Source: Gammaproteobacteria bacterium
Lineage (GTDB): Bacteria > Pseudomonadota > Gammaproteobacteria > SZUA-140
Reading direction: 5' to 3'
Assembly: GCA_015491865.1 (NCBI GenBank)
Contig: WFVD01000020.1
Span: 1-64,000 of the forward strand
Length of the DNA: 64,000 nucleotides
The notes below the pieces were generated by a model. The model did not search any database and had not been told where the DNA came from. It worked only from the letters and a program-made list of their open reading frames with translations. The number at the start of each line of letters is the position of its first letter. Position 1 is the stretch's first letter. The position numbers were made by a program, and so were the translations under genes. This document shows, piece after piece, positions 17,330 through 37,664 of this stretch.

Positions 17330-20300
17330 TTATTCGCTTATCAGGTTATTCTCTGCCTTCATCCAGTTTTTACGCTGATGAATGCGCTCTTTGGCCTGTA
17401 ATATCCAACCATAAACTACTGGCAGAACAACGAGTGATAACAGGGTTGTGGTCACCATTCCTCCCACCATCGGTGCCGCAATTCGCTGCATCACTTCGGA
17501 ACCCGTGCCACTACCAAACATAATTGGTAACAGGCCGGCAATCACCGCCACGGCCGTCATAACGATAGGGCGTACCCGCTCTGAGGTCCCCACCCTTACG
17601 CCTTCTAATATCTCCGCAGCTGTCAGGAAGGCGAACTGGTTTCGTTCTTTAGCACCTTTCTCCTGGCGGCGTCGCGCCACTTCCTGGTCGATAAAAGTCA
17701 GCACCAGCACTCCGATCTCCGCAGCGACACCAGCAAGCGCAATAAAACCAACAGCGACCGCTACCGACATGTTGAAACCGAACCAGTAGATCAACCAGAT
17801 ACCACCGACCAGTGCGAACGGCACTGATAGCAACACCACCAGCGGTGCACTGATATTGCCAAAATTAAAATAGAGTAGTAGAAAAATGAGCAGCAGGGTT
17901 GCAGGCACCACCACTTGAAGCCGTTTGGTCGCACGCTCCATATACTCAAACTGGCCAGACCAGGTGACGGTATAACCGGGTGGAATCTCCACCTGATCAG
18001 CCAGAACTTTTTTAGCCAGCGCCACATAGCCTCCAATGTCGGAACCTTTAATATCGACATAGAGCCAGGCGTTTGGTGTCGCATTCTCACTCTTGATAAC
18101 GGGGGCGCCACGCCGCTCAACAATATCGGCCACCTGTGCCAATGGAATCTGCGCACCTGAAGGAGTGGGAATCAACACCCGCGCCAGACTTTCGGGCGAA
18201 TCACGCAACTCACGCGGATAGCGTAAATTGACGGGATAGCGCTCCAGCCCCTCTACGGTATAAGTGACGTTCATTCCCCCGATTGCAGAACTGATGGCCT
18301 TTTGCACATCCCCTACAGTCAAGCCATAACGGGCAGCCCTTTTTCGATCAATATCAAAGTCGATAAAATAACCACCCACCGCGCGATCAGCAAAGGCTGA
18401 AAGGGTCTCCGGGATTGTTTTCATAGCGCGTTCGATCTCTTCGGAGATCCTTGCCAGCTCACCAAGATTTGGTCCACTCACCTTTATGCCGATCGGTGTT
18501 TTGATGCCTGTCGAAAGCATATCGATACGTGTTTTGATCGGCATCGTCCAGGCGTTCGCCAGCCCAGGAAAACGGATCGCCTTGTCCATCTCCGACATCA
18601 GGGTCTGCATCTTTTTATCGGGATCAGGCCACTCCTCACGTGGTTTAAGCCGTGCAATAGTCTCCATCATTGAGAGTGATGCCGGGTCGGTCGCACTTTC
18701 GGAACGCCCCACTTTTCCAAACACTGTCTCCACTTCCGGAAATGTCTTGAGAATCTTATCAGTCTGTTGCAACAGCTCTTTGGCCTTGGTGATAGAGATA
18801 CCGGGAAAGGTGGTCGGCATGTAGAGCACATCCCCTTCATCGAGCGGCGGCATAAACTCACTACCAAGTTTTGATAACGGATACCAGGTAACTACCAGTA
18901 ATACTATCGCCCCGATCAACGTTAGCTTCCGCCACCCCATTGCCAGCCTTAATGTCGGTGTGTGCAGAAAATGGAGTATCCGGTTCACCGGATTCCTCGC
19001 CTCAGGCAGGATCTTGCCGCGAATAAACCAGCCCATCAGCAGTGGCACCAGCGTCACCGCTAATAGTGCGGCAGCAGCCATCGAATAGGTGCTGGTAAAT
19101 GCAAGTGGTGAAAAAAGACGCCCTTCCTGCCCTTGCAGGGTGAAAATTGCCAGATACGAGGAGGTGATAATCAGCAATGAAAAGAATAGCGCGGGCCCTA
19201 CCTCTTTAGCTGCGGCAGTGGTAGCAGCCCAGCGCTCCTGAGTGGTCAGTTCTGACCCTTTTTTATTCCCCGCACGCTCCAGATGTTTATGGGCGTTTTC
19301 AATCATCACTATTGCACCATCAACCATCGCACCGATAGTAATGGCGATCCCTCCTAGCGACATAATGTTGGCATTAAGCCCCTGCCAGCGCATCGCTAGA
19401 AAAGCGAGCAGAATACCGATCGGCAGTGCAACAATGGCAACCAGTGCAGAGCGAGCATGAAGCAGAAAAATAATGCAGACCAGGCTAACGACAAAAAATT
19501 CCTCGATCAGTTTCTCACTCAGGTTGTCCACTGCCCGCTCAATGAGCGCACCACGATCATAGGTAGTGACAATTTCAACCCCCTCGGGTAGTCCCTTGCT
19601 CAGTTCTGCTAATTTGGCCCGTACCCCTTCGATGGTTGCCAGCGCATTTTCACCAAAACGCATAATGACAATTCCGCCCACCACCTCTCCCTCTCCATTC
19701 AGCTCTGCCAGACCACGCCGTAATTCTGGGCCAATATGGACATGAGCAATGTCTTCAAGTCGGATCGGTGTGCCATTGGCATCAGCACCTACAGAAATGT
19801 CATTAAGATCTTCAATACTCCGGATATAACCTCGGCCTCGCACCATATACTCTGTTTCCGACATCTCAATCAGCTTGCCACCGACATCATTATTGGAATT
19901 CTGTATTGCGCGCTTCACTTTTGATAACGGAATGTTATAGGCGTCCAGCGCACTGGGATCAACTTCTACCTGGTACTGTTTAACATAGCCACCCAGCGCA
20001 GCCACTTCCGAAACACCTGGCACTGTCTGGAGTGGATAACGCAGATACCAGTCCTGAATCGAGCGTAGTTGTGAAAGATCATGACGGCCAGTTTTATCGA
20101 CAAGTGCATACTCATAGATCCACCCCACCCCTGTGGCATCCGGCCCCAGCGCTGGATTGGTTCCTTCAGGCAGACGATCTCCCACATAATTAAGTGACTC
20201 CAGTACGCGTGAACGTGCCCAATACATATCAGTACCATCTTCAAAGATGATGTAAACAAAAGAGTAACCAAAAAATGAGTAACCCCGTACGACGCTCGCC

Positions 20301-20533
20301 TTTGGCACTGATAACATCGCAGTCGTCAGTGGGTAGGTGACCTGATCTTCAACCACCTGCGGAGCCTGGCCCGGGTATTCAGTAAAAACGATCACCTGCA
20401 CATCAGAAAGATCAGGAATAGCATCGAGAGGCGTCGTCTTTAGCGCCCACAAGCCACTCACAATGATCAGAAAGGTGGCTATCATCACCAGGAATTTCTT
20501 CCTGACCGATAGTTCGATAATACGCTCGATCAT
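17330..20533 (-). CDS. cusA: CusA-type Cu(I)/Ag(I) efflux RND transporter, copy 1
   Basis: 1067 residues, the inner-membrane proton-driven pump of a CusCBA complex. Twelve membrane segments with two large periplasmic loops follow the HME-RND pattern; the proton-relay Asp lies in IGAMVDGAIVMIENAHKHLE. LGSEFMPPLDEGDVLYMPTT and RIDMLSTGIKTPIGIKVSG resemble CusA/SilA more than CzcA, so monovalent copper or silver is the likely substrate. Its ATG overlaps the cusB1 stop by four bases. It is closely related to the copy at 44719 but its C-terminal cytoplasmic region is longer (QEKGAKERNQFAFLTAAEIL). Confidence 0.9.
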   Translation of the reverse strand: MIERIIELSVRKKFLVMIATFLIIVSGLWALKTTPLDAIPDLSDVQVIVFTEYPGQAPQVVEDQVTYPLTTAMLSVPKASVVRGYSFFGYSFVYIIFEDGTDMYWARSRVLESLNYVGDRLPEGTNPALGPDATGVGWIYEYALVDKTGRHDLSQLRSIQDWYLRYPLQTVPGVSEVAALGGYVKQYQVEVDPSALDAYNIPLSKVKRAIQNSNNDVGGKLIEMSETEYMVRGRGYIRSIEDLNDISVGADANGTPIRLEDIAHVHIGPELRRGLAELNGEGEVVGGIVIMRFGENALATIEGVRAKLAELSKGLPEGVEIVTTYDRGALIERAVDNLSEKLIEEFFVVSLVCIIFLLHARSALVAIVALPIGILLAFLAMRWQGLNANIMSLGGIAITIGAMVDGAIVMIENAHKHLERAGNKKGSELTTQERWAATTAAAKEVGPALFFSLLIITSSYLAIFTLQGQEGRLFSPLAFTSTYSMAAAALLAVTLVPLLMGWFIRGKILPEARNPVNRILHFLHTPTLRLAMGWRKLTLIGAIVLLVVTWYPLSKLGSEFMPPLDEGDVLYMPTTFPGISITKAKELLQQTDKILKTFPEVETVFGKVGRSESATDPASLSMMETIARLKPREEWPDPDKKMQTLMSEMDKAIRFPGLANAWTMPIKTRIDMLSTGIKTPIGIKVSGPNLGELARISEEIERAMKTIPETLSAFADRAVGGYFIDFDIDRKRAARYGLTVGDVQKAISSAIGGMNVTYTVEGLERYPVNLRYPRELRDSPESLARVLIPTPSGAQIPLAQVADIVERRGAPVIKSENATPNAWLYVDIKGSDIGGYVALAKKVLADQVEIPPGYTVTWSGQFEYMERATKRLQVVVPATLLLIFLLLYFNFGNISAPLVVLLSVPFALVGGIWLIYWFGFNMSVAVAVGFIALAGVAAEIGVLVLTFIDQEVARRRQEKGAKERNQFAFLTAAEILEGVRVGTSERVRPIVMTAVAVIAGLLPIMFGSGTGSEVMQRIAAPMVGGMVTTTLLSLVVLPVVYGWILQAKERIHQRKNWMKAENNLISE

Positions 20534-21951
20534 GGTTGATTACCCTTCCCTTGACCAGGCAATGAGGTCTCATCCATCGCTTGATTCTTCACTGCCCCTG
20601 CGCTGCCATCAACGCCCTCCTGTGTCGCATCACCAACTGTACCGTCGATCATTTTTGCTGTTGCTTCTCGCAAAGAAGACTCGGAATCGATCAGGAACTG
20701 CGCTGAAACCACCACCTCTTCATCGGCTGCGACCCCTTCGAGAATCTGCGTCTGACCCTCACTGGTAACTCCTACAACCACTTCACGTGGCTCAAACTTG
20801 CCCGGCTCACGCACCACAAAAACCTGCTTACGCGCACCGGAACGGACTATCGCCTGAGCCGGTACCAATACAGTTGGCGCACTACGTACGCTCTTTAATG
20901 TTACATTGGCAAACATCTCAGGTAGCAGCGCGCCATCACTGTTATCAAATTCGAGGCGTACTTTAGCAGTGCGTGTCTTGCGGTCTAGATAGGGGTAGAT
21001 GTAGCTGATATGGCCATGAAACTCACGTCCCGGCACCCCTTCTACCGTAATTTTCGCCGAGTCCCCCTCCTTGATCCAGGGCAGTTCAAATTCAAACACT
21101 TCTGCGTAGACCCACACTTTATTGAGATTGGCGATATGGTATAGCTGAGTCCGGGGTGTCACATATTGCCCAGCCTGCACACCCATTTTGATCACCACAC
21201 CATTAAAAGGCGAGTGAATGTGCGTGACCCGGAAAATCTCACCACGCTGCTCCAGTGCTTCAATCTGATGCTCAGGCATATCCAGTAATTCCAGCCGTAG
21301 ACGTGCTGACTTCACAAGACTCTCCGCACCACGTCGAATATCCTCCAGTGGACTTTCAGCCAGTGTTTTTCGGTTCTTAAGTGCCAGCAGGTACTCTTCC
21401 TGACTCGCTACCATTTGAGGCGAATAGATACTCAGCAACACATCCCCTTTTTTCACCTGGGCACCTGTTTTATCGATCGCTAATGTTTCTACCCACCCAT
21501 CAATTTTAGGGTAGATGCGCGCCAGCTGTGTCTCATCAAAATCGACACGTCCCACGGCCCGCACAATGTGTGACAACGGCCCTTCAGTGGCACGTGCGGT
21601 GCGCACGCCGATATTCTGTACTGTAGTACCATCGATTTTGACTGTGCCAGCCGGTTCATTGCTATCTGCACTATCGTCAGCGTAAACAGGAACATAGTCC
21701 ATTCCCATGCTATCTTTGGCTGGCACGGGTGAGGTCACGCTGGGGTTCATCGCATTTCGGTAGAAAAGTGGCTTACGCTCAGCAACCGCTTGACGCTCAC
21801 CACTGTCGCTCGGCGCAGGCTCACCACCGCCGAAAAGCAGATAGCCACCACCCAACCCCGCGACCAGTGCAACAGCTATCGCCATCGAATTCATATTGTT
21901 ACCCATGGGTTTGTTACTCTCAGGTTTGTTGTTCTCAGACTTGTTATTCAT
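20530..21951 (-). CDS. cusB: CusB-type periplasmic adaptor, copy 1
   Basis: 473 residues, membrane-fusion protein joining CusA to the outer-membrane channel. The N-terminal membrane anchor (SMAIAVALVAGLGGGYLLFG) is followed by one heavy-metal-binding segment, LFYRNAMNPSVTSP…MGMDYVPVY, then lipoyl-like and beta-barrel domains (SIYSPQMVASQEEYLLALKN). The frame is open to a GTG at 21966, but ATG 21951 has GAGGA eight bases before it and gives MNNKSENN, so I chose it; it overlaps the cusC1 end. Compared with copy 2 it has one metal segment instead of two, and its C-terminal tail lacks Met repeats. Confidence 0.9.
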   Translation of the reverse strand: MNNKSENNKPESNKPMGNNMNSMAIAVALVAGLGGGYLLFGGGEPAPSDSGERQAVAERKPLFYRNAMNPSVTSPVPAKDSMGMDYVPVYADDSADSNEPAGTVKIDGTTVQNIGVRTARATEGPLSHIVRAVGRVDFDETQLARIYPKIDGWVETLAIDKTGAQVKKGDVLLSIYSPQMVASQEEYLLALKNRKTLAESPLEDIRRGAESLVKSARLRLELLDMPEHQIEALEQRGEIFRVTHIHSPFNGVVIKMGVQAGQYVTPRTQLYHIANLNKVWVYAEVFEFELPWIKEGDSAKITVEGVPGREFHGHISYIYPYLDRKTRTAKVRLEFDNSDGALLPEMFANVTLKSVRSAPTVLVPAQAIVRSGARKQVFVVREPGKFEPREVVVGVTSEGQTQILEGVAADEEVVVSAQFLIDSESSLREATAKMIDGTVGDATQEGVDGSAGAVKNQAMDETSLPGQGKGNQP

Positions 21952-23239
21952 ATACAGATTCCTCACCCACTGCAGCCACCAGTCGGGCAGCTGCCTGACG
22001 AGCCGAGCTAAGGGCGTTCCAGTATTGTGTTTCGTAGTTATAAAGCGTGATCTGGGCGCGTACTACGTTGAGAAAATCGACCTTATTCACCTGATAACCA
22101 GCTAACATGGAGGATACTGTCTGCTTGGCCTGAGGAATAATCGCTGTCTTAAAAAGCGCTGCCTTTTCGCTACCGCGGCGGTAGTCGGAGAGTGCTCTGC
22201 CGATGGCAGCCTCCACCTGATTAAAAGCGTCGGCCAGCGCATAACGTTGCTGCAGTTGTTCAGCACTGCGTTGATCTACTGCCCGATCCTGCTTCGTTCC
22301 AGTATAGATAGGCAGACTCATACCAAACATCAGAGAGGCCAGGTCGGCACGGGAAGAGCCATTCGGGTTATCACCCTGGCGCACGCCGTAAGCTGCGCCC
22401 AGAGTGAAATCGGGGTAGTAATCCCGCTTAGCGAGTGCCAGCTGTAGCTGCGCCGCTTTCAGTTGCGCTGCTCGCGCTGCCAGTATGGGGCGAACCTCCG
22501 CAGCACGTGCCACCAGCAGCGCCTCATCTCGTGGCGAAGGGAAATCCTCGGCTACTCTGCGGGGTAGCAACAGTGAATCTGTCGCTTTACGGTCGAGCAG
22601 AGTGCTGAGGCGAATCGACTCATTACGGCGCTGCCCTTCCAGTTCTAGCTGCCGATCAAACAGCTTAGAGAGTTCCAACTGTGCCAGCAGAACATCCTGC
22701 TGCAACCCTTTACCAACACTATATTTACTCTCGGCCACTTCGATAAACTGGCGCATCAGCATCTGATTGTTTTCAACAACCTCTAGCGCCCGATCGAGAA
22801 AAAACAGATTCCACCAGACCATTTTCACATCCCGAACCAGAGTCAGCCGCAGCTCTTCCACGCCAAAACCAGCGGCGTTGGCCATCGCTTCCGCTGCATC
22901 CTGGCGCAATCCGAGTTTACCGGGAAAGGGTAACAGCTGGCTGATACCGAGCTGGGTCTGAGTCATCCCCTCCTGAGAAAAAGAGAAGCTATCGACCGGC
23001 AGGTTGAGCAGTTTAAGTGACAACCAAGGGTCAGGCAATGAGCCCATTTGGTCCGGCAGTGCTGCTAACGCCTCGGCGCGGGCACTAATCGCCGCCAGAT
23101 CTGGATTCGCCTCGACGACCTCATCCACTGCTTTCGCTATCGTCAATGGCTCCTCTGCACGTAGTGGCGCGCTAAAAAGCAACATCATGACCACAATAAG
23201 GCGCCATTGTCGGCAGCCGGACATTTCATCTCTTTTCAT
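21944..23239 (-). CDS. cusC: TolC-family outer-membrane channel (CusC-like), copy 1
   Basis: 431 residues from the chosen start. It is the outer-membrane and periplasmic tunnel of the tripartite efflux system. A signal peptide (RLIVVMMLLFSAPLRAEE) precedes two repeats of helical and beta sequence; LGISQLLPFPGKLGLRQDAA and the repeated GYQVNKVDFLNVVRAQITLY are typical. The frame is open to 23410, but that extension would overlap the end of the flavoprotein gene at 23253; ATG 23239, 13 bases after that gene, gives a proper signal peptide (ATG 23224 is also possible). Confidence 0.88.
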   Translation of the reverse strand: MKRDEMSGCRQWRLIVVMMLLFSAPLRAEEPLTIAKAVDEVVEANPDLAAISARAEALAALPDQMGSLPDPWLSLKLLNLPVDSFSFSQEGMTQTQLGISQLLPFPGKLGLRQDAAEAMANAAGFGVEELRLTLVRDVKMVWWNLFFLDRALEVVENNQMLMRQFIEVAESKYSVGKGLQQDVLLAQLELSKLFDRQLELEGQRRNESIRLSTLLDRKATDSLLLPRRVAEDFPSPRDEALLVARAAEVRPILAARAAQLKAAQLQLALAKRDYYPDFTLGAAYGVRQGDNPNGSSRADLASLMFGMSLPIYTGTKQDRAVDQRSAEQLQQRYALADAFNQVEAAIGRALSDYRRGSEKAALFKTAIIPQAKQTVSSMLAGYQVNKVDFLNVVRAQITLYNYETQYWNALSSARQAAARLVAAVGEESVYE

Positions 23240-23252
23240 AAACCTTTTCCAG

Positions 23253-24404
23253 CTAATCATGAACACAACAGTCACCGCGACACCAGATACAGTGGCAATC
23301 AACATGGTCACAGGTAACATCCTTACGATGACTCTCATAACGGCGTCTCGCCCATGGACTGAGTAACCGCTTTGGAAGAGTGAACTGATATTGCCAGCGA
23401 AGTGATTCACGTAGATCTTTCCGCGTAGAGAGGTAGCTAAAAAATCGCGTAAAACTGCGATTACTCGCTAAACTGAATAAAACACGATTGACTACTGCCG
23501 CATCCATCTGCGGTTTTAATTCTCGCTGCCAGAGCCTGTCGTAGTTTTCACCGCTCAACAGGCTTTGGGCAGCCAGCACTCCGGAAGAGATTGCCAGACG
23601 CATGCCAAACCCCCAAAGTGCATCCTGAAAACCCGCCTGTTCACCAACCCGTGGGTGAAGCCCGCTATAGGCAGTGGTCGGAATATGAAAATTACCGCTA
23701 CCGCCATGAGGCTGTGGGTTTTGCATTGTCATGCCTGCCAGACGTTCGAAGGCCGCTACTGTTCTTTCAAGATAGCGCTTTTCCTGCTTGAACCCTGAGA
23801 ACATGCAGGTTTTAACCGTACCCCGGCCATTGGCAACCAGCAGGTAGGCGTAACCTTCGGGCGCTAATTCATTATCACAGATGGCCCAGTAACCATCATC
23901 CATATCGGTGTCAAAGTGATAACCGACCGCAATCGCATCAGCAGCACGTGGACCCGCGGCAAGAATCCCCTCGCCCCTCATTTCGCGTAAGCGGCTGTTG
24001 AAGCGCACATCAACACCAAGGGATTGCGCCTGTTCAAGCAGAGCGCTATCGAGAGTTCCAGGGCCGGGACCGCGCTCAACAAGATAGAAAAGCGGCTCAT
24101 CACTTTTTATGCGGTGCTCATTGCCCACGGGATCATAAATCGTACAGTTATCCCCCGGTGGTGCATTAAAATCTGTCGTAATCCCCTGGCGTTCGAGAAC
24201 CTTGAAGACATCTTCTTTTGTTGTCCAGTTTTCCAGCCCTTGATAATCGCCACCAAAACGGTGTCCCACTTCCCGATGCATTTCATGCACAACAACCTGT
24301 CGCCCCGCTCGTGCAAGCGTAATCGCAGCCGCTAATCCAGCCGGGCCTGCACCCGCAATCTCTACCGGCATTTCAGCATCGGTTCTACTGTTCTGCTCTG
24401 TCAT
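23253..24404 (-). CDS. FAD-dependent oxidoreductase (geranylgeranyl-reductase-like)
   Basis: 383 residues. The N-terminal dinucleotide motif VEIAGAGPAGLAAAITLARA and the later GFQDALWGFGMRLAISSGVL (FAD ribityl-binding region, GD changed) place it in the large FAD/NAD(P) oxidoreductase group that includes geranylgeranyl reductases and lipid desaturating or reducing flavoproteins. The C terminus is Cys/His-rich (CDHVDCHCIWCRGDCC), which is unusual and could bind metal or a cluster. It is between the ferredoxin oxidoreductase genes and cusC1 on the same strand. Its substrate is unknown; low-potential electrons from the neighbouring ferredoxin enzyme are a reasonable source but not shown. Confidence 0.7.
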   Translation of the reverse strand: MTEQNSRTDAEMPVEIAGAGPAGLAAAITLARAGRQVVVHEMHREVGHRFGGDYQGLENWTTKEDVFKVLERQGITTDFNAPPGDNCTIYDPVGNEHRIKSDEPLFYLVERGPGPGTLDSALLEQAQSLGVDVRFNSRLREMRGEGILAAGPRAADAIAVGYHFDTDMDDGYWAICDNELAPEGYAYLLVANGRGTVKTCMFSGFKQEKRYLERTVAAFERLAGMTMQNPQPHGGSGNFHIPTTAYSGLHPRVGEQAGFQDALWGFGMRLAISSGVLAAQSLLSGENYDRLWQRELKPQMDAAVVNRVLFSLASNRSFTRFFSYLSTRKDLRESLRWQYQFTLPKRLLSPWARRRYESHRKDVTCDHVDCHCIWCRGDCCVHD

Positions 24405-24612: not shown

Positions 24613-26256
24613 TTAACTCACGTTCCCCATATCGATATGGCCACAGGGACACTCCTCAGCGCAGATACCACACCCTTTGCAGTAGTCATAATCGATCCTG
24701 TAACCACCCGCTATTTTGATCACCGCCGCATCAGGGCAGAAATGCCAGCAGTTATCACATTCAAAGCAGACACCGCAGCTCAGGCAACGTTTCGCTTCAT
24801 GCCTTGCACTATCATCATCGACCAGCCCTTTCACCACCTCTTTGAAGCCGTCCAGCCGTTCTGGATTCATTTCACCTTCAAGGCGAGGCTGTTTGGCGTA
24901 GTAATGCAGCTGCATCTCCCTATAGGTGATTTTTCTTTTTTTATGTTCATCCGGAATAACGGCATCGCCTTTTAGCCTTGCCATCATCGACATCGCTGCC
25001 CGATAACCGCTGCCCACTGCTGCTGCCGCCAGTTTGGATTTACTCACCGCATCACCACCCACCCAGACACCATCCGCCTCTGTCGTTTTCTGTAGCACCT
25101 CCAGCCCTCGCCAGTCACTCTCCTGGCCGATGGCGAAGATCACCAGTTCCGCCGCGACAAACTCCTCGGTACCATCAAATAGTATCGGGTTGAAATTACC
25201 GTGCCGGTCATGCACCCGGTCCACATGGGCAATTTCAATTCCGGAGAGGTGGTCACCACTGCGTACCAGACGATGCACCCCGGCACGATAGATAAGCTGT
25301 ACCCCCTCTGCCTCCGCCTCAACCACCTCGGTTAGTGAGGCGGGCATTTCAGTGCCCAGTTCATGATGGTGTGTGCCGTGCGGATCCTGTGCGCAAATCA
25401 CCGTCACCTCCGCTCCGAGGCGTCGAACACAACGCGCCACATCCATCGCGGTGTTACCACCACCCACGACGGCTACCTGCCTGGGTATCTCCAGCTCTTC
25501 ACCTCGATTCAGGCGGTGAAGAAATTCAAGCCCACTCATGACACTGTGGTTTGATCTCGCCTTCTCGGCTCCGTTGTTATAGGGGTTGAGGCGGGGTTGC
25601 TGAGTACCGATCGCCAGAAAAACGGCATCGTACTGATCAAGCAGATCGCTTTCGCTGACCGCTTCACCTATTCGACTGTTAAGACGCAGCTCAATGCCCA
25701 GTGCGAGAATGGCATCGATCTCGTTCGCCAGCACCGATTTGGGCAGACGATAGTCGGGAATCGCGCTGTGCAGCGTGCCGCCCGCCTCCGCCTGGTCATC
25801 AAAGATCGTCACCGAATAGCCGTGCCGCGCCAGTTGAAAGGCGCAGGAGAGACCGGCCGGGCCAGCGCCAACGATCGCCACCCGCTCTGGCTGCGCATCA
25901 TCACAGAAGGATCTATGACGCCACCCCTGGGCGATGGCCATGTCGCCGAGATAGCGCTCCATCGCGTGGATATTAACGGCGCTATCGAGATGCTTGCGGT
26001 TACAGGCCGATTCACAGGCGTGATAGCAGATGCGTCCCATGGTCGCCGGGAAGGGGTTGCGCTCGGTAAGCTTGTGCCACGCCGCCTGCCACTGCTCTGC
26101 TGAGGCCAGTGCCAGCCACGCCTGAATATCTTCCGAGGCGGGGCAGATCTGGCTACAGGGCGGCCACTTGTTTTGATAAACCGGTTGCTGCGTACGCCAC
26201 TCACCGGTGTGATAGGCGTTACTGCTACCCGGTTCAATTTCGAGTTTAGCTGCCAT
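24613..26256 (-). CDS. GltD-like NAD(P)H:ferredoxin oxidoreductase subunit with C-terminal 2[4Fe-4S] domain
   Basis: 547 residues. The N-terminal helical ferredoxin domain has C34, C38 and C77/C81/C85; next come the FAD motif (VAIVGAGPAGLSCAFQLARH) and NAD(P) motif (VAVVGGGNTAMDVARCVRRL) of the glutamate synthase small-subunit family; the end carries two cluster motifs, CLSCGVCFECDNCWHFCP and YCKGCGICAEECPCG. It probably passes electrons between NAD(P)H and the 2-oxoacid oxidoreductase encoded just upstream. A very strong ribosome binding site (AAAGGAGGTCAC) fixes the ATG at 26256, overlapping the end of the beta-subunit gene by 11 bases; the open frame to 26367 is extra. Confidence 0.88.
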   Translation of the reverse strand: MAAKLEIEPGSSNAYHTGEWRTQQPVYQNKWPPCSQICPASEDIQAWLALASAEQWQAAWHKLTERNPFPATMGRICYHACESACNRKHLDSAVNIHAMERYLGDMAIAQGWRHRSFCDDAQPERVAIVGAGPAGLSCAFQLARHGYSVTIFDDQAEAGGTLHSAIPDYRLPKSVLANEIDAILALGIELRLNSRIGEAVSESDLLDQYDAVFLAIGTQQPRLNPYNNGAEKARSNHSVMSGLEFLHRLNRGEELEIPRQVAVVGGGNTAMDVARCVRRLGAEVTVICAQDPHGTHHHELGTEMPASLTEVVEAEAEGVQLIYRAGVHRLVRSGDHLSGIEIAHVDRVHDRHGNFNPILFDGTEEFVAAELVIFAIGQESDWRGLEVLQKTTEADGVWVGGDAVSKSKLAAAAVGSGYRAAMSMMARLKGDAVIPDEHKKRKITYREMQLHYYAKQPRLEGEMNPERLDGFKEVVKGLVDDDSARHEAKRCLSCGVCFECDNCWHFCPDAAVIKIAGGYRIDYDYCKGCGICAEECPCGHIDMGNVS

Positions 26257-27226
26257 GTGACCTCCTTTCACAGTAACCACCCCGGCCATGGCGTTCGCTC
26301 TGCATCGCACGGTCGGTGTCCCACTCCGTCTCCGCATCAAGCAGACCGTAGCGACGGATACGGGCATCGGCCAGCGCCTGAAGATGGCGCAGCTCTATCG
26401 CACCATTCTTACTGTTAAAAAGATGTTTGAAACGCCCCTGTGGGCGTAGATACTCATCCACCGGCCGTTGCTCAGCGAGACGCATCACGCCGGTCAGTTC
26501 ACCGTGTTCCAGCTCCACCAGTGGAAACAGTCCGGTCTCCACTGCCAGTCGCGAGACGGTTACCGACAGTGCACTGTCATGCACCCACCCCAGCGGACAG
26601 GGTGACAGAACTTGCAAAAAACGCGGCCCCTTAATACCCATCGCCTTCTCCACCTTGGCCTTAAGGTCGGGGAAATAGGCGACCGTTGCAGTGGCCGCAT
26701 ACGGCATATGGTGAGCAGCCATGATCGAGATCACATCCTTTTTTAGCTGATGCTTGCCCTGGCTCAAACGGCCTGGCGGCGAGGTACTGGTGCGCACCGC
26801 GTGCGGTGTTGAGCTGGAGCGCTGCACCCCGGTGTTCATGTAGGCCTCGTTGTCGTAACAGACAAACAGAATGTCGTGACCCCGCTCGATCATGCCGGAG
26901 AGGCACTGCAAACCGATATCAAACGTCCCACCATCCCCCGCCTGAACCACAACGGGGGTCTCTTTTCCACTGATCCGCAGGGCCGCCTCAATACCAGAGG
27001 CGACCGCTGCCGCATTGGCAAAAACAGAGTGGATCCACGGCGCCTGCCAGGCACTCTGTTGATTGTGGGTAGTAAACACCTGCAGACAGCCGGTGGCGTT
27101 GATGTAGATCGCATCGGGGCCGATCAGGTCGCTCACCATGCGGGCAGCCATCGCTTCACCGCAGCCGGAGCAGGCGCGGTGACCGGAGGTAAGCACGTTA
27201 TGACGAAAAGGGTCACGTTTATCCAT
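26246..27226 (-). CDS. porB: 2-oxoacid (pyruvate-type):ferredoxin oxidoreductase, beta subunit
   Basis: 326 residues. It binds thiamine diphosphate and a [4Fe-4S] cluster and carries out the oxidative decarboxylation of a 2-oxoacid to acyl-CoA with reduced ferredoxin. The cluster ligands begin at HRACSGCGEAMAAR; the TPP/Mg motif is GDGGTFDIGLQCLSG…CYDNEAYMNTGVQRS, which is the form seen in pyruvate enzymes. The start at 27226 has GGGAGG seven bases upstream and overlaps the porA stop by eight bases. Confidence 0.93.
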   Translation of the reverse strand: MDKRDPFRHNVLTSGHRACSGCGEAMAARMVSDLIGPDAIYINATGCLQVFTTHNQQSAWQAPWIHSVFANAAAVASGIEAALRISGKETPVVVQAGDGGTFDIGLQCLSGMIERGHDILFVCYDNEAYMNTGVQRSSSTPHAVRTSTSPPGRLSQGKHQLKKDVISIMAAHHMPYAATATVAYFPDLKAKVEKAMGIKGPRFLQVLSPCPLGWVHDSALSVTVSRLAVETGLFPLVELEHGELTGVMRLAEQRPVDEYLRPQGRFKHLFNSKNGAIELRHLQALADARIRRYGLLDAETEWDTDRAMQSERHGRGGYCERRSHGS

Positions 27227-28397
27227 GTTGCACCTCCCCATTAACGCTGTGATCTGGAGCAAAGCGGTTTTGCGTATCTATTTTTTCATCGGCGGCCTGC
27301 TGAAAAATCGCTTCGATCACCGCGGGTGTCAGATCACGTCCGCCCAGCCCACCGATCACACTCTCCACTGGAATCGTCATCTCTGCCTGCTGCAGCGCTG
27401 CACGCAACTCTGCGGCAACAATGCCGCCCGCGCCGATACTGATCGCCTTTTCCAGTACAATAATTCGTTGAGCCACTTTCAGGTGATCAAGCAGCGCCTG
27501 CACAGGGAAAGGACGGAAACAGCGCAGGCGTAACGCACCCACCGCTTTTCCCTGGTCACGTTGCCTGTCTACTGCTTCTGCTACCGCTCCCATTAATGTG
27601 CCCATACAGAGCACCACCGTGGTCGCCCTATCAAGACGGTACCCCTGCACCAGGCCACCGCCAGTGCGCCCAAACCGGGTCTCAAAATCGGCATCAAACG
27701 CCTCTATCACCGCCTGTGCATTTTCCATTGCGTCATGTTGAGCAACGCGGTAGGGCTGATAATTATCCGCTTCACTTGCCCCTCCGAGTGTCATCGGCCT
27801 GGCAGGATCCAGGGTGCGAACAAACTGGAAAGCGGGCAGGTAACCATCGACCTCCGCCTGTGACGGCAACTCTACTGGCTCAAAGGTGTGCGTCAATAAG
27901 AAGCCGTCCATGCAGACCATCACCGGCAGTTCACAAACCTCGGCGATGCGATACGCCTGAATCATCGTATCGACCGCCTCCTGATTACTGCCAACATAGA
28001 GCTGAACCCAACCCGCATCACGAACGGCCATGCTGTCCTGATGGTCTGAGAAAATATTAATCGGTGCGCCTATCGCTCGATTGGCACAGACCATCACTAC
28101 CGGCAGCCGTAAGCCGGCAATGTTATAGAGCACCTCAGTCATTAATAAGAGACCTTGTGAAGCGGTTGCCGTGAATGCGCGTGCGCCAGCAGCGACGGCA
28201 CCCAGTACGATGGACGCGGCACCGAACTCGCTCTCGGCATTGATGAACTCTGCATCCAGTTCACCATTGGCTACATGCTGCGCCAGCCGTTCAATGATAT
28301 GTGTCTGTGGGGTGATGGGGTAAGCAGCCACCACCTGGGGCCGACACAGCCGCACCGCCTCGGCCACCGCTTGTGAACCTTCGAGTAGCTGTTTCAT
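27219..28397 (-). CDS. porA: 2-oxoacid (pyruvate-type):ferredoxin oxidoreductase, alpha subunit
   Basis: 392 residues. The alpha chain holds the pyrimidine-binding and core domains: VVAAYPITPQTHIIERLAQH, NAESEFGAASIVLGAVAAGA, FTATASQGLLLMTEVLYNIA and NIFSDHQDSMAVRDAGWVQL are all typical PorA segments. It overlaps the gamma gene by four bases and the beta gene by eight, so subunits are translationally coupled. Confidence 0.94.
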   Translation of the reverse strand: MKQLLEGSQAVAEAVRLCRPQVVAAYPITPQTHIIERLAQHVANGELDAEFINAESEFGAASIVLGAVAAGARAFTATASQGLLLMTEVLYNIAGLRLPVVMVCANRAIGAPINIFSDHQDSMAVRDAGWVQLYVGSNQEAVDTMIQAYRIAEVCELPVMVCMDGFLLTHTFEPVELPSQAEVDGYLPAFQFVRTLDPARPMTLGGASEADNYQPYRVAQHDAMENAQAVIEAFDADFETRFGRTGGGLVQGYRLDRATTVVLCMGTLMGAVAEAVDRQRDQGKAVGALRLRCFRPFPVQALLDHLKVAQRIIVLEKAISIGAGGIVAAELRAALQQAEMTIPVESVIGGLGGRDLTPAVIEAIFQQAADEKIDTQNRFAPDHSVNGEVQHG

Positions 28398-29053
28398 CTG
28401 GCCTGCTCCTCTTTTGAAACCGCCCCTGCTGCTCCTTTAAAAAAGCGAGGCTGAGGGGGTGCTGAAATTGGCGGGGAAGTGGGTATTGAGGGAGATTCAT
28501 ACCCTTCACGCAGGGCTTCAATGTTGGCTTTTACAACCTCTTCTCCTTTTCTGGATAAATGGTTCGTAACCGCTTTTTCAAGCGCCGCTAGACTCACCCA
28601 CTGCGTCGCAGCAGCCAGCGCCCCTAGCAATACGGTATTGGGCAGGGGGCGGCCGAGATGGCGTTCGCCGATTTCGCTAGCGGGCAGGCAGAGCCAGCGA
28701 AAACCGTCGCCTTCACTCGCTGCTGGCTGTTCACCGTTCAATACAATCAAACCACCCCTTTTCAAACCGCGCAGTAGTGGTTCAGAACGTAACAGACCTG
28801 CATCCTGAATCACTACCGCATCTGGGGTATAGAGCTGGTTGTGAGCACGAATCGTCGAACTGCTGATCCGCACATAGGCCTCGACAGGTGCTCCCCGCCG
28901 CTCGGAACCAAACTTCGGAAACGCCTGACTTTCAAAACCATCTTCAAATGCGGCCAGTGCCAGCAGCGCCGCTGCCGAGACTGTGCCCTGGCCACCACGT
29001 CCGTGCAGGCGGATGTCATGCAAATCCGCTTCGGTTTTAGTTTCCATGGTCAT
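28394..29053 (-). CDS. porG: 2-oxoacid (pyruvate-type):ferredoxin oxidoreductase, gamma subunit
   Basis: 219 residues. The family opening IRLHGRGGQGTVSAAALLAL and KFGSERRGAPVEAYVRIS are clear, with a longer C-terminal tail than many gamma subunits (Pro-rich, then FFKGAAGAVSKEEQAR). The frame is open to 29116; ATG 29053 (or 29047) matches the family start. It overlaps the 3' end of the APC permease gene by 17 bases, tying the permease to the oxidoreductase operon. Confidence 0.9.
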   Translation of the reverse strand: MTMETKTEADLHDIRLHGRGGQGTVSAAALLALAAFEDGFESQAFPKFGSERRGAPVEAYVRISSSTIRAHNQLYTPDAVVIQDAGLLRSEPLLRGLKRGGLIVLNGEQPAASEGDGFRWLCLPASEIGERHLGRPLPNTVLLGALAAATQWVSLAALEKAVTNHLSRKGEEVVKANIEALREGYESPSIPTSPPISAPPQPRFFKGAAGAVSKEEQAR

Positions 29054-30389
29054 GGCCCTTGCGCTCCTCAGAGTTGTTCGATTGACGTAAAAAGAAACGC
29101 TCACCCACAAAGACAATCAGCACCCCAACCAGCGCTGCATAGATCACCAGCATATCGGTAGACGCTTTCACCATTAGAAAAACCGTTAGCACCACCACAT
29201 CAAACACAATGGCCGCAATCAGAATTGTGGCATTCGCGCTGATCTCTTTTCGAAGATGGCGAAACACACCCCAGTGCACGGCGATATCCATCAACAGATA
29301 GAAGATGGCACCGAGTGATGCAATACGAGTCAGATCAAAAAACAGGGTGAGGAAGATGGCAATCACAATGGTATAAACCAGCGTATGGTTCTGAATGGTG
29401 CCCGGCATACCAAAATGACGGTGGGGTACTAACTTCATGTCAGTCAACATCGCCAGCATACGTGACACCGCAAATATACTGGCGATAACGCCCGAAGCGG
29501 TGGCGACAATCGCCAGTGCGACAGTGAACCACAACCCGTAATCTCCCAGCATTGGGCGCGCTGCCTCAGCCAGTGCAAAGTCTTTTGCGGCGATGATTTC
29601 CGTCAGGCTCAGGTTCCCCGCAACCGCCAGTGCTACCAGAAAATAGATAACCACACAGATCGAGATTGAAATAATAATGGCGCGCCCAACATTGCGATGG
29701 GGGTCGACAATTTCAGAGCCGCTATTGGTAATGGTGGTAAACCCCTTGTAAGCCAGAATCGCCAGCGCCATGGCAGCGATGAATCCGCTAACGGTGGTAT
29801 CTGCCACACCCGTCGCCGGGCTGCCTTCAAATGAAATACCGCCAATCCATAAACCACCCACCGCAAACACCACAATGCCGCCAATTTTAATAAAGGCCAT
29901 CACCAGCGAAAAAAAACCGATCGCGCGATTACCAGAAACATTGAGTAAAAAAGCAAACACGAGCAATCCAACCGCTAATGCCAAAACGATCCAGCTACTC
30001 GGATCAATATCGAACAGCTGTATGCTATAAGTGCCAAATGTTTTGGCTACCAGACTCTGGTTGATCACCATTGAAAAGTACATCAGCAATGCACCCGCCG
30101 CCGTCATTACCCCACTGCCATAGGCCTTTTGTAGAAACATCGCTATGCCGCCAGCCGAAGGATAAGCGTTTGATAGTTTTACATAGGAGTATGCGCTAAA
30201 TGCAGTGACCACTGCTGCAGCAAGAAAAGCAAGCGGAAACAGTGATCCGGCAAGCTCTGCAATCTGCCCTGTCAGTGCGAGTATGCCGGCACCGATCATC
30301 ACGCCAGTGCCCATCGAAACAGCACCCACCAGTGTCAAGCTATTCTTTTTGTATTGCGTTTTTTCGTTGTGCTGAGAGTGATCTTTCAT
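29037..30389 (-). CDS. APC-family amino acid permease
   Basis: 450 residues with about 12 hydrophobic segments. The first helix has the GxG(I/V) substrate loop of APC transporters (GVMIGAGILALTGQIAELAG), and helix 6 has the AMALAILAYKGFTTITNSGS-type break. It probably imports an amino acid or amine with a cation. Overlap with porG suggests its substrate is converted to the 2-oxoacid used by the ferredoxin oxidoreductase; this is inference. The His-rich C terminus (KGHDHGN) is short. Confidence 0.85.
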   Translation of the reverse strand: MKDHSQHNEKTQYKKNSLTLVGAVSMGTGVMIGAGILALTGQIAELAGSLFPLAFLAAAVVTAFSAYSYVKLSNAYPSAGGIAMFLQKAYGSGVMTAAGALLMYFSMVINQSLVAKTFGTYSIQLFDIDPSSWIVLALAVGLLVFAFLLNVSGNRAIGFFSLVMAFIKIGGIVVFAVGGLWIGGISFEGSPATGVADTTVSGFIAAMALAILAYKGFTTITNSGSEIVDPHRNVGRAIIISISICVVIYFLVALAVAGNLSLTEIIAAKDFALAEAARPMLGDYGLWFTVALAIVATASGVIASIFAVSRMLAMLTDMKLVPHRHFGMPGTIQNHTLVYTIVIAIFLTLFFDLTRIASLGAIFYLLMDIAVHWGVFRHLRKEISANATILIAAIVFDVVVLTVFLMVKASTDMLVIYAALVGVLIVFVGERFFLRQSNNSEERKGHDHGN

Positions 30390-31257: not shown

Positions 31258-32022
31258 CTAAGGCAATTTTTCTAACTCAAATACAGAGACCCGGTAAAAC
31301 TCGGCAAAACAGTGAAACTCGTCTACCTGTCTAACCGCTTTACCCTGCTTATTTGCATGTTCATCCAGCATGGCGGCCAGATCCACCTGCCAGAAACTCT
31401 CTAAAAATGGCTCCAGCCACTGCAACAGCATGCGTGTGGGCCATAGCCGCCACAACAGATTTTTTCTGGGACAGGCCCCATACTCGGCGATCACGAAACG
31501 GCCGCCGGGGCGTAACACCCGTATCGTTTCACTGATGCTGCGTTCACGTGCATCGGGCGGTAGCTCATGCAGTAAAAAGAAGATCAGCACGGTGGTAAAA
31601 GCGTCGTCAGCATAGGCGAGATGCTCTGCATTCATACGCGCACAAAGCAGACGTTCCTTGTCCGCATCCGCCAGCTTTTTCTGGGTTGCATTCAGCTGTA
31701 TCTCCGCCACATCCATGAGATAAAGTTCATCGTCCATCGCATTAAGCAGTGACGGCGTCATGCTGCCATAAGCGCAGGTAAGCTGTAACAATCGCCCTTC
31801 TGGCCTGTTCCTCATGCAGTTGCGCAACGCTCGCTGCGATAGCGTTTTGTACTGGCCAAAAAGAATGGCGCTGATAATTGGTTGATGGTCAAAAAACCAG
31901 ACACCCCAACGCCACAGATAGGCCCACCAGTAATGACGTGCCAGGTATTCTGGGTGACTGTCGTGAAAGCGACACCAGATGCCTGAGCATGACGCTCTAT
32001 TTCGGAACCACTTTGATGACAT
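31258..32022 (-). CDS. rquA: RquA-like rhodoquinone biosynthesis enzyme (methyltransferase fold)
   Basis: 254 residues with a class I SAM methyltransferase fold. Three features point to RquA: the N-terminal HYWWAYLWRWGVWFFD at 30-45, a non-canonical SAM motif I (LLQLTCAYGSMTP, 78-90) in place of GxGxG, and VLIFFLLHELPPDARE at about 145-160. RquA uses SAM to aminate ubiquinone to rhodoquinone, the low-potential quinone for fumarate reduction without oxygen. The other possibility is an ordinary quinone methyltransferase. Neighbours are a haem membrane protein and a small cytochrome c, with ferredoxin oxidoreductase genes close by, which fits an anaerobic electron chain. Confidence 0.62.
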   Translation of the reverse strand: MSSKWFRNRASCSGIWCRFHDSHPEYLARHYWWAYLWRWGVWFFDHQPIISAILFGQYKTLSQRALRNCMRNRPEGRLLQLTCAYGSMTPSLLNAMDDELYLMDVAEIQLNATQKKLADADKERLLCARMNAEHLAYADDAFTTVLIFFLLHELPPDARERSISETIRVLRPGGRFVIAEYGACPRKNLLWRLWPTRMLLQWLEPFLESFWQVDLAAMLDEHANKQGKAVRQVDEFHCFAEFYRVSVFELEKLP

Positions 32023-32047: not shown

Positions 32048-32344
32048 CTATTGGTTCGCCAACAGATATTCGACTAGTGCATCTATCTCAGCATCCGCTA
32101 ATTTTCCTTTATAAGCTGGCATCGCTCCTTTACCTTTCGAGATGATTGCACGCAAAGTAGCTGCCTCACCGCTCATACTGTTGACCGCTGGCCCCAGCTT
32201 TCTTTTATCAATGGCGTGACAGAGCGAACAGTTCTTTTTGAAAAGTGCTTCACCGTTCGACAGTTCACTGGCTGAGGCCGTTGCTACCGCAGCAGAAAGT
32301 AGTGGGATGCTCAATAACTTGATACCGTTTTTTAACATGGACAT
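32048..32344 (-). CDS. Small class I cytochrome c, exported
   Basis: 98 residues from ATG 32344. Signal peptide LLSIPLLSAAVATASASE, haem site NCSLCHAID and a distal Met in KGAMPAYKGKL: a single-haem cytochrome c of the cytochrome c5/c551 size, acting as a periplasmic electron carrier. AAGGGAG eight bases upstream supports this start, although the frame is open to 32422. It is 25 bases from the RquA-like gene on the same strand. Confidence 0.88.
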   Translation of the reverse strand: MSMLKNGIKLLSIPLLSAAVATASASELSNGEALFKKNCSLCHAIDKRKLGPAVNSMSGEAATLRAIISKGKGAMPAYKGKLADAEIDALVEYLLANQ

Positions 32345-32436
32345 GTGATGACTCCCTTCTATTGTTATACAGAAATAGTTTAAACGAACCATAGGACTGG
32401 CTATTCTTTTCTTCAGCAACATAAAATATTAGCTCA

Positions 32437-33687
32437 TCAAAACCCTCGTAACTGTACTGCATGATCAACCCGCCTGATAGCCAGCTCGTAAGCTGCGCAG
32501 CGCATATCGATCTCTCGCTCCTGTGCCAGAATTGACACTGCATCATGGGCATGTGACAGGCGGCTTTCCAGCCTGCGCAATACTGTTTCACGGTCCCATG
32601 GAAACTGCTGAAGGTTTTGTACCCACTCATAATATGAAGCTAGTACGCCGCCCACATTGGCCAGGAGATCTGGCACAACAGTGATGCCCCGTTGTTTTAA
32701 CTGATCATCTGCGCGATGAGTGATCGGCATGTTGGCCGCCTCTACCACCAGTCTTGCCTGAATCGCGTCAGCATTGTCACAGGTGATGGTCGCTTCCAGC
32801 GCCGCAGGCACCAGAATCTCACAGGGGAGCTCTAGCAGATCGGCATTGCTGATGGGGGCACTTCCAGGTAGGCCAGTCAGCGTGCCATTCTCTGCAACAT
32901 AGGCGAGCGCCTGTTCTATCGAAATGCCCGCCTCATTCATCACACCTCCGTTGACATCGGAGAGTGCGATGACTCGGTACCCCTTGTTGGCCAGGCCGAT
33001 CGCCGTATGGGAACCGACATTACCAAATCCTTGAATCACCACCCGGGACTGCTCCGGTGAGAGTGCCATCTCTGTAGCTACCTTATGCGCCAGATGGGCA
33101 ACACCGTAGCCAGTTGCCTCAAGCCGTCCTGCACTCCCCCCCAGCTCTATCGGTTTACCGGTCACCACGGCGGTTCTGAAACCGTGTGTTTTACTGTATT
33201 CATCCATCATCCAGGCCATCACCTGCGGATTGGTACCGATGTCCGGTGCTGGGATGTCATCATGCACGCCGATGATTGGTGCCATCTTCTGGCAGAAACG
33301 TCTGGAAAGTTCTTCTCGTTCAATCTCATTCAACGCGGTCGGATCAACGGCGATACCACCTTTGGCTCCACCGAACGGGATATCAACCAGAGCGGTCTTC
33401 CAGGTCATCAACTGTGCCAGCGCCCGTATCTCTCCCATGTTGACATCAGGATGAAAGCGCAGTCCACCCTTGAAGGGACCTCGAGCATGGTTGTGCTGAA
33501 CACGGTAACCCTGGAAGGTGTGCAGCTTCTCATCACCGTTATGACGCAAGGTGATGGGTACTGTGATCCGTGTTTCCCGAAACGATGAGAGCAGCAGCTG
33601 TCGATGTTCACTCTTCAGCTTGAGGCGCTCAAAGGCGCGGTCAAGAAAGTGGCGCTGGGTCTCCTGGCAGATACATTTTTTATCCAT
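32437..33687 (-). CDS. Glu/Leu/Phe/Val dehydrogenase (glutamate dehydrogenase type), copy 1
   Basis: 416 residues, the hexameric GDH length. It interconverts glutamate and 2-oxoglutarate with ammonia, using NAD(P). The substrate and catalytic region is KGGLRFHPDVNMGE…MTWKTALVDIPFGGAKGGI, and the dinucleotide motif is VVIQGFGNVGSHTAIGLANK. The ATG overlaps the stop of the DUF5676 gene by eight bases. A second, divergent GDH is at 53140. Its place at the end of a metal-resistance run, beside electron-transfer genes, is unusual; it may feed the amino acid path served by the APC permease and ferredoxin oxidoreductase (inference). Confidence 0.92.
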   Translation of the reverse strand: MDKKCICQETQRHFLDRAFERLKLKSEHRQLLLSSFRETRITVPITLRHNGDEKLHTFQGYRVQHNHARGPFKGGLRFHPDVNMGEIRALAQLMTWKTALVDIPFGGAKGGIAVDPTALNEIEREELSRRFCQKMAPIIGVHDDIPAPDIGTNPQVMAWMMDEYSKTHGFRTAVVTGKPIELGGSAGRLEATGYGVAHLAHKVATEMALSPEQSRVVIQGFGNVGSHTAIGLANKGYRVIALSDVNGGVMNEAGISIEQALAYVAENGTLTGLPGSAPISNADLLELPCEILVPAALEATITCDNADAIQARLVVEAANMPITHRADDQLKQRGITVVPDLLANVGGVLASYYEWVQNLQQFPWDRETVLRRLESRLSHAHDAVSILAQEREIDMRCAAYELAIRRVDHAVQLRGF

Positions 33688-34997: not shown

Positions 34998-37664
34998 TTA
35001 CAGCTTTGCGCCTTTTAGCCTGAGTGCGTTTGCAATGACCGATACGGAACTAAAGCTCATTGCCGCAGCGGCAATCATCGGTGATAACAACAGGCCAAAT
35101 ACGGGATAGAGTACACCCGCTGCAATCGGTACGCCGGCGGCGTTATAGATAAAGGCAAAAAAGAGGTTCTGGCGGATGTTGCGCATGGTGGCGCGACTGA
35201 GCCGCCGCGCTCGTACGATGCCGCGCAGGTCCCCCTTGACCAGGGTGACGCCAGCGCTCTCCATCGCCACATCGGTGCCGGTACCCATCGCCACACCAAC
35301 ATGTGCCTGTGCCAATGCGGGAGCATCGTTAATACCATCGCCAGCCATGGCGACGATATGCCCTTCTGCCTGAAGCTGCTTCACCACTTCCGCTTTCTGC
35401 TCCGGCAGCACCTCCGCCTGCACCTGGTCGATATCCAGTTTAGTGGCGACCGCTTCGGCCGTTTTGCGGCTGTCACCTGTCAGCATCACTACCCGAATCC
35501 CTTCTCCATGCAGGTCCCGAATCGCTTCAGGCGTACTTGCTTTAATCGGGTCAGCCACGCCGATGAGGCCTGCGGCTATGCCATCGATCGCCAGTAGCAT
35601 CACGGTCTGCCCTTCAGCACGCTGGCTGTCGGCCTGTTGAGGCAGATCACCCGCTTCGATGCTAAGGCTTTCAAGCAGCTTTAGATTGCCCAGTGCCACC
35701 TTATGGCCATCGACAATACCGGTCACCCCTTTACCGGTTACTGACTGGAAGTTCTCTGCCTGAGTCAGTGTAAGCGCTTTTTCCTCGGCACCCTGCACAA
35801 TCGCTTCGGCCAGGGGGTGCTCACTGGCGCGTTCCAGACTAGCGGCCAGCCTCAGGTTATCATCTTGCTGAAAACCTTCACACGCAACCACCGAGACAAG
35901 TTTTGGTTTGCCTTCGGTTAATGTGCCGGTTTTATCCACCACCAGGGTGTCGACTTTCTGCATAATCTCCAGCGCTTCGGCGTTTTTGATCAGCACCCCC
36001 ATCATGGCCCCTTTGCCAGTGCCGACCATGATCGACATCGGTGTTGCCAAACCCAGCGCACAGGGGCAGGCGATAATCAGAACGGCTACCGCATTGATCA
36101 CGGCATAGGCGATAGCGGGCTCTGGCCCCCAGACACTCCAGACAATAAAAGTGATCACCGCAACAACGACAACAGCCGGGACAAAATAGCTGGCGACAAT
36201 ATCAACCAGTTTCTGAATCGGTGCGCGAGAACGTTGCGCATCCGAGACCATCTTGACGATCTGTGCCAGTAGCGTATCAGCACCCACCCGGTCGGCTCGC
36301 ATCAACAGACCACCGGTACCGTTAACGGTCGCGCCAATCAGCTTTTCACCACTTCTCTTCGCCACCGGGATCGGCTCGCCGGTAACCATCGACTCATCGA
36401 CATTACTTTCACCATCGATCACTTCACCATCGACAGGTATCTTCTCGCCGGGACGAACACGCAGCTGGTCACCCGGTTTCACATGCTCTAACGGGATATC
36501 CTCTTCTGTACCGTCTTCGCGGACAATACGTGCCGTCTTTGGCGCGAGTCCTAGCAGTAATTTAATCGCAGCATTGGTCTGGCTGCGGGCGCGTAGCTCC
36601 ATCACCTGCCCCAATAACACGAGCGCAGTGATCACGGCGGCGGCCTCAAAATAGACCGGCACCACACCCGCCTCATTAAAGACGGCGGGTGGAAATATCC
36701 CCGGCACCAGCACCGCGATCAGGCTATAGATCCAGGCGATGCCAACCCCGATCGCAATCAACGTAAACATATTTAGGTTACGGGTCACAATCGATCGCCA
36801 GCCCCGCTGAAAGAAGATCCAGCCGCCCCACCAGACAACGGGAGCGGAGAGCACAAGTTCAGCCCACTGGCGAGTGGTGGGTTCGATCAGACCGTTAATC
36901 GCCTCAGGCCAGAACTCCGCCGCCATGGCGCTGAAAAAGACCGGAATCGCCAGCAGCGCACTGACCCAGAAACGGCGCGTCATATCATCCAGCTCGCTGT
37001 TATCTTCTGCTGCCGCTACGGTGCGTGGCTCTAGCGCCATACCGCATTTGGGGCAGTTACCTGGGTGATCCTGAACAATCTCTGGATGCATCGGGCAGGT
37101 GTATTCGGTTGTTGTGGCGGCAAGCGGAATATCTTTTCGTTCCAGCGCCATGCCGCACTTCGGACAACTGCCCGGCCCCTGCTGTTCGATCTCAGGGTGC
37201 ATCGGGCAGGTGTAGATCGCGCTTTCATCACCCCCCTGACTCGATCTGGCAGCTTTATGGTGACCGTGGTGGCTGCCACCACAACAGCCCTTTTTTTCTG
37301 TTGTGGATTCTGGCGCTGCCGGCTTTTGACTGCTGCAGCAACACCCTTCTCCCTCTTGCTTACCCGCTTTCAGATATTGATCTGGTGACTGCTGAAACTT
37401 ACTCAGACAGCCGTCACTACAGAAGTAGTAGGTTTTACCATTGTGCTCGGAATGGTATTCCGAGGCTTCAGTAACGACCATGCTGCAGACGGGGTCCTTA
37501 ATAGAATCACTATCGCTCGGCTCAGTTTTTACATACTGCGAGGGGGATGCCTCGAATTTATTCTGGCAGCGCTCACTACAAAAGTAATAGGTCTGGCCAT
37601 TATGATCTGTATGACGGTGACCTTGTTCTTCTACTTCCATACCACAGACTGGATCGGTGCTCAT
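34998..37664 (-). CDS. copA: Cu(I) P1B-type ATPase with two YHS and two heavy-metal-binding domains
   Basis: 888 residues. It exports copper across the inner membrane using ATP. In place of the usual HMA domains, the N terminus has two YHS domains (about 1-45 and 57-98), a Cys/His-rich linker ([18 protein letters not shown]) and two HMBD segments (YTCPMHPE…CPKCGMAL at about 150-215). The core is intact: [30 protein letters not shown], the HP of EHPLAEAIV, and [15 protein letters not shown] and MSFSSVS in the last helices indicate the Cu(I) (P1B-1) group. It follows the Met-rich gene after a gap containing a long hairpin. Confidence 0.94.

Follow-up and report, generated by a model that had tools for sequence, protein, structure and literature searches.

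The gene at positions 31258-32022 of the window (the whole stretch of 64,000 nucleotides of gammaproteobacterial DNA that was analysed) is, judging from sequence comparisons, not a standard rhodoquinone-making RquA; it belongs to the closest relatives of RquA, which are found in iron- and vent-associated autotrophic bacteria. As a member of an RquA sister group, it probably modifies ubiquinone. We give about even odds that it is an enzyme of methyltransferase fold that uses SAM and, like RquA, works on the ubiquinone ring, in a different physiological setting. The homology, the fold, the shared derived motifs, the ubiquinone genes and the conserved neighbourhood are observations, from which we infer the substrate, the reaction and the physiological role.

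Two groups of sequences under one RquA model

A first-pass annotation made from the raw sequence had called this gene a likely RquA: it found the right superfamily and was too definite about membership. The open reading frame and the three motifs that it reported were all confirmed. The frame, which starts with ATG and encodes 254 aa, covers exactly 31258-32022 on the minus strand (a strand that had not been stated), the plus strand being riddled with stops over this interval, and the motifs HYWWAY, LTCAYGSMTP and LLHELPPDA occupy residues 30-35, 81-90 and 150-158 of the protein. HYWWAY and LLHELPPDA, which had been read as marks of RquA, are indeed present, but HYWWAY and HELP are the forms of a second group of sequences, whereas true RquA proteins mostly have TYWWAY and HEQP.

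When the protein was compared with family models, the NCBIfam RquA model (NF038261) matched it with E = 4.4e-50 and 170.4 bits (170.3 bits from genomic DNA), which is under the curated cut-off of 175 bits. The next-best family came at 1.9e-11, nearly 40 orders of magnitude weaker, UbiE models reached 33-43 bits for cut-offs of 158 and more, and Pfam gave general methyltransferase models and nothing more specific. Whole-genome searches with NF038261 in 369 genomes of the same class (Gammaproteobacteria) and 398 of the phylum, about 770 in all from partly overlapping samples, revealed that the scores form two heaps: true RquA proteins at 279-319 bits, with one at 225, and a second group at 143-186 bits (leaving out a few pieces cut at contig ends), in which the window's protein falls. 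Each of the 40 second-group members tested matched the RquA model, and the 175-bit cut-off runs through the group, with 7 of the 25 same-class members above it. Automatic annotation is thus likely to name some second-group members RquA and others plain methyltransferases, and Zetaproteobacteria and other lithotrophs may come to be credited with rhodoquinone when nothing shows it directly.

Phylogenetic analyses, which the first-pass annotation had proposed with UbiE as the outgroup, placed the protein with RquA and outside the true RquA clade. True RquA and the second group came out together, apart from the UbiE and other methyltransferases used as outgroup (SH-aLRT 97 in one tree, 97/98 in another), and true RquA formed its own clade without the window's protein (SH-aLRT 98 and 100/100, respectively); forcing the protein into that clade cost 35.5 log-likelihood units, which is strong evidence against this placement but short of formal rejection (p-AU 0.07). 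The second group was a single clade with a support of 85 in one tree and paraphyletic in another, and an AU test did not reject a single clade (p 0.59); it may be either the sister clade of RquA or the grade from which RquA arose. What stands of the name "likely RquA" is that RquA is the nearest family and shares derived motifs with the protein; the score below the cut-off, the position outside the clade and the missing invariant residues do not agree with it.

A scan of 84,980 species' genomes gave 346 relatives, and the best 80 of these, a list skewed to near relatives, came from vent and other Gammaproteobacteria, Candidatus Tenderia, Sideroxydans, Gallionella, Ferrigenium, Mariprofundus, Ghiorsea and a few alphaproteobacteria. 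Second-group genes are common among Gallionellaceae, Zetaproteobacteria and autotrophs from vents, and their occurrence across classes bears out the patchy spread that had been predicted. Since the Gallionellaceae sequences sit among Zetaproteobacterial ones in the tree, this intermixing suggests gene transfer. Within the window's genus, the gene was found in 3 of 10 genomes, several of the others being incomplete. One genome of a Zetaproteobacterial-type family (f207) carries two second-group copies (G590:C8:10818-11477, 180 bits; G590:C4:10278-10937, 167 bits).

In the papers compared, we found no report of the second group. It appears as a large, so far undescribed sister group; if it corresponds to group A or B of Stairs et al. 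(PMC5953543), it is not new.

Residues and predicted structure

An alignment of 109 second-group, 41 true RquA and 8 UbiE-type sequences, with Rhodospirillum rubrum RquA itself not included, showed that several features occur in both RquA groups and not in UbiE: Q80 (motif I position 3), Y85, Q109, H152-E153-P155, the WAY block and W211. The HE of FFLLHExP was found in all members of both groups. RquA has been described as having Q at position 3 and V at position 7 of motif I (PMC7813818), and its change from D to Q has been taken as an argument against methyl transfer (PMC9814641); at position 7, the window's protein has A84 where 86/109 second-group sequences have V. R. rubrum RquA loses its activity when D118 and D143 are both mutated (PMC9814641). 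Mapped by motif, D118 corresponds to D104, an invariant Asp, and the D143 site to N131, with N in 99/109 second-group sequences, D in 40/41 true RquA and either D or N in UbiE. Furthermore, 41/41 true RquA sequences have H182, P184, P189 and Q244, and 35/41 have K245; most or all second-group sequences lack these residues (H182 being replaced by G or A and Q244 by R, while P184 and P189 also differ) and have UbiE-like letters at several of the sites. At positions 132, 133, 180 and 244, the window's protein keeps UbiE-like letters (A132, E133, E180, R244).

The AlphaFold model of the protein (pLDDT 90.5) has as its nearest solved fold yeast Coq5 with SAM (4obw). The shared residues and this predicted structure make it very probable that we are dealing with a quinone-type enzyme dependent on SAM; amino transfer does not follow from them. 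With RquA (NF038261; R. rubrum Rru_A3227, a SAM:ubiquinone amino transferase that turns ubiquinone into rhodoquinone with Mn2+), the protein has in common the fold, the Q for D in motif I, the WAY block, the Asp mapped to D118, FFLLHExP, W211, EPF, a ubiquinone-making host and a patchy spread, whereas it differs by its score and its place in the trees, by the lack of H182, P184, P189, Q244 and K245, by N131, and by A instead of V at motif I position 7. With UbiE/Coq5, the ubiquinone C-methyltransferase, it has in common the fold, the ribose-binding Asp and the four letters named above, and it differs by motif I, H152-E153, the WAY block and Q109.

Genomic neighbourhood and respiratory company

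The genes around the locus are listed in the table.

Table. Features at and around the RquA-like locus of the window.
Feature	Position	Strand	Evidence and remarks
RquA sister-group protein gene	31258-32022	minus	254 aa; fold of the class I SAM-binding type; putative enzyme of ubiquinone modification
Monohaem c-type cytochrome	32048-32422	minus	One CxxCH; Pfam PF13442 (Cytochrome_CBB3) 7.3e-17; 25 bp upstream of the RquA-like gene
Glu/Leu/Phe/Val-type dehydrogenase	32437-33687	minus	Pfam PF00208 2.6e-70; synteny with the RquA-like gene also seen in genomes of relatives
Membrane protein, one CxxCH domain and several hydrophobic helices	30401-31171	minus	86 bp downstream of the RquA-like gene
Amino acid permease	29037-30389	minus	Pfam AA_permease_2 3.3e-30; separates the oxidoreductase operon from the haem protein gene
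2-oxoacid:acceptor oxidoreductase gamma	28394-29116	minus	TIGR02175 9.5e-52, over cut-off; Pfam POR
2-oxoacid:acceptor oxidoreductase alpha	27219-28397	minus	NF040682 4.8e-142, under cut-off; POR_N, PFOR_II
2-oxoacid:acceptor oxidoreductase beta	26246-27262	minus	NF008819 8.1e-108, under cut-off; TPP_enzyme_C
GltD-like NAD(P)H/FAD subunit, C-terminal 4Fe-4S delta domain	24613-26367	minus	NF009410 533 bits, over cut-off; TIGR02179
FAD-dependent protein, geranylgeranyl-reductase superfamily, Cys-rich C end	23253-24404	minus	TIGR02032 5.8e-13, under cut-off

The two haem c neighbours and the nearby ferredoxin oxidoreductase that the first-pass annotation had mentioned are the monohaem cytochrome and the one-CxxCH membrane protein in the first case, and the 2-oxoacid:acceptor oxidoreductase with its GltD-like subunit (24613-29116) in the second. 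A relative of the cytochrome gene lies at position -1 or -2 of the RquA-like gene in other loci. The membrane protein, which has a conserved SLHSLxKVSHIHLFGI and no match in Pfam or NCBIfam, has homologues near the RquA-like gene at 21 loci of about 17 genomes, which with few exceptions belong to a single part of the tree. The permease is probably incidental, and a flavoprotein with a start like that of the 23253-24404 protein adjoins the RquA-like gene in one other locus (L069).

The oxidoreductase genes, with gamma, alpha, beta and GltD/delta-like genes downstream of the RquA-like gene, resemble the 2-oxoacid:acceptor oxidoreductases that include an NAD(P)H subunit (PadEFGHI-type, PorABCD); they would encode a separate enzyme, tied to the RquA-like gene by neighbourhood only. 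This operon lies near the RquA-like gene in the subgroup with the haem c membrane gene (vent Gammaproteobacteria), and the same linkage recurs, with the genes ordered differently, in three further genomes: one of Tenderia type (L069), one alphaproteobacterial (L144) and one of Gallionella (L161). Such independent arrangements argue for a functional link, perhaps to the use of pyruvate or some other 2-oxoacid in fermentation or at low oxygen.

Elsewhere in the window, we noted a fatty acid cis/trans isomerase with one haem c motif (14418-16826; Pfam CTI, 881 bits) and, around the locus, genes that read as metal handling: a P-type ATPase whose N end would bind metal and a pair of efflux systems resembling CusA (34998-37664, 17330-21966 and 44719-50685). 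PADLOC gave a weak methyltransferase-domain match and nothing else, and a plasmid comparison gave no match.

The window's genome (2.54 Mb) is nearly complete; 1.83 of these 2.54 Mb (72%) were examined, and gene absences rest on whole-genome searches only. It carries UbiA, UbiB, UbiC, UbiE and UbiJ, its own UbiE adjoining UbiJ and UbiB on contig C13, so that the ubiquinone implied as the substrate of an RquA is, as far as gene content tells, available in this organism. It also has RuBisCO, one iron-sulphur subunit of Sdh (dhsB) unlinked to the RquA-like gene, and, judging from gene order and motifs, an alternative complex III (G000:C2 28606-36100) made of a pentahaem c protein, a MoCo/FeS protein, an NrfD-like protein, ActD, the monohaem ActE and ActF. 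Its searches gave no UbiU and no second quinol:fumarate reductase.

Among second-group carriers, a ubiquinone-type UbiA over or near cut-off was found in 35/36, and UbiU, of the O2-independent ubiquinone pathway, in only 6/35 compared to 10/12 true RquA genomes (p = 7e-5, uncorrected for kinship). Published work ties rhodoquinone to that pathway in 73/84 genomes (PMC11707229). All 30 carriers tested had a single dhsB, and none of them a second Sdh or Frd, while two true RquA genomes had a second dhsB copy about 1 kb from rquA, an arrangement that Stairs et al. described for some bacteria (PMC5953543) and that, as linkage or second copy, is a frequent, not a universal, companion of rquA. In Gammaproteobacteria, RuBisCO was present in 17/25 carriers and 16/44 non-carriers (p = 0.014, from few genomes and uncorrected for kinship). 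The scarce UbiU, the single dhsB and the RuBisCO indicate a physiological setting unlike that of classical RquA, from which the second group differs by having no Frd/Sdh linkage and mostly no UbiU.

Beside the RquA-like gene or one gene off, three loci carry a Cyc2-like fusion of a monohaem cytochrome and a porin (AVPAFARQHQTECSSCHSAWPALN; L065:6627-7847, L066:1074-2270, L067:9273-10472), which fits the published Cyc2 motif closely (PMC8406198) and matches no Pfam or NCBIfam model; two of the genomes are congeneric and the third is of the same family. We also considered iron oxidation as a common denominator of the carriers, a tie to which the named relatives had pointed. Among 369 Gammaproteobacteria, Cyc2 was found in 7/25 carriers and 54/344 others (p = 0.16), and the Cyc2 profile is absent from the window's own genome, showing that a tie to iron oxidation is not general.

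Possible functions

The likeliest reaction is of RquA type: a ring methoxy group of ubiquinone would be replaced by an amino group from SAM, and the product would be rhodoquinone, the likeliest candidate, or a close aminoquinone of lower potential. As the host carries RuBisCO and the genes for ubiquinone and no UbiU was seen in it, this product would feed a branch of electron transport for low oxygen or redox balance and not a dedicated fumarate respiration. Against this reading stand the score under the RquA cut-off, the invariant residues that differ, N at the D143 site, the scarce UbiU and the single dhsB. An outlying rquA annotation from Desulfobacterota, the GWC2-55-46 protein, gave no rhodoquinone in E. 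coli (PMC13386864), although it could be placed in neither group.

On a more speculative note, which we hold at somewhat less than an even chance, autotrophs that oxidise iron or live at vents may use a second, widespread branch of the RquA superfamily to make an unsuspected low-potential or modified quinone used for low-oxygen transport or reverse electron flow, and not for fumarate respiration, in hosts whose ubiquinone would come mainly from the O2-dependent route. If second-group members make rhodoquinone, a second quinone of low potential would be at the disposal of neutrophilic iron oxidisers and vent autotrophs, with consequences for how electrons are pushed uphill to NAD+. If they make none, the two groups together would reveal the residues by which a methyltransferase fold becomes an amino transferase.

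The protein might also be a quinone-modifying member of the RquA superfamily with another reaction or substrate, such as an ordinary methylation at C or O, or the transfer of an amino group to a different quinone or a quinone precursor, and so yield an undescribed lithotroph quinone. The UbiE-like A132, E133, E180 and R244, the missing true-RquA letters, a genomic company unlike that of true RquA and the geranylgeranyl-reductase-type flavoprotein nearby are in line with this possibility, but motif I is altered as in RquA, with the Q for D that has been read as speaking against methyl transfer, and the HE of FFLLHExP, universal in both groups, is missing in UbiE; we regard this alternative as the next likeliest, at less than an even chance.

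An RquA-type modification of ubiquinone remains our preferred reading, and a plain RquA that makes rhodoquinone for fumarate respiration without oxygen appears improbable. A score near the cut-off, which 7/25 same-group members pass, would agree with such a role, as would a cluster of a 2Fe-2S/4Fe-4S protein, an FrdA-like flavoprotein and a NuoF-like subunit adjoining NadB in the genome (G000:C6 21415-24895; L254:2416-5896). The first-pass annotation had suggested checking the genome for a fumarate reductase; a quinol:fumarate reductase dedicated to rhodoquinone was not found in it. No membrane anchor gene lies beside the cluster, which may encode a fumarate reductase linked to NAD(P)H and does not look quinol-linked. 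The exclusion from the true RquA clade, the cost of forcing the protein into it, and the lack of UbiU and of a second Sdh/Frd in the genome searches also speak against plain RquA.

Finally, class I methyltransferases are readily confused and the Pfam matches are general only, but the E-value gap between the RquA model and the next family and the RquA-specific derived residues make it very improbable that this is a methyltransferase of unrelated function that does no more than resemble RquA.
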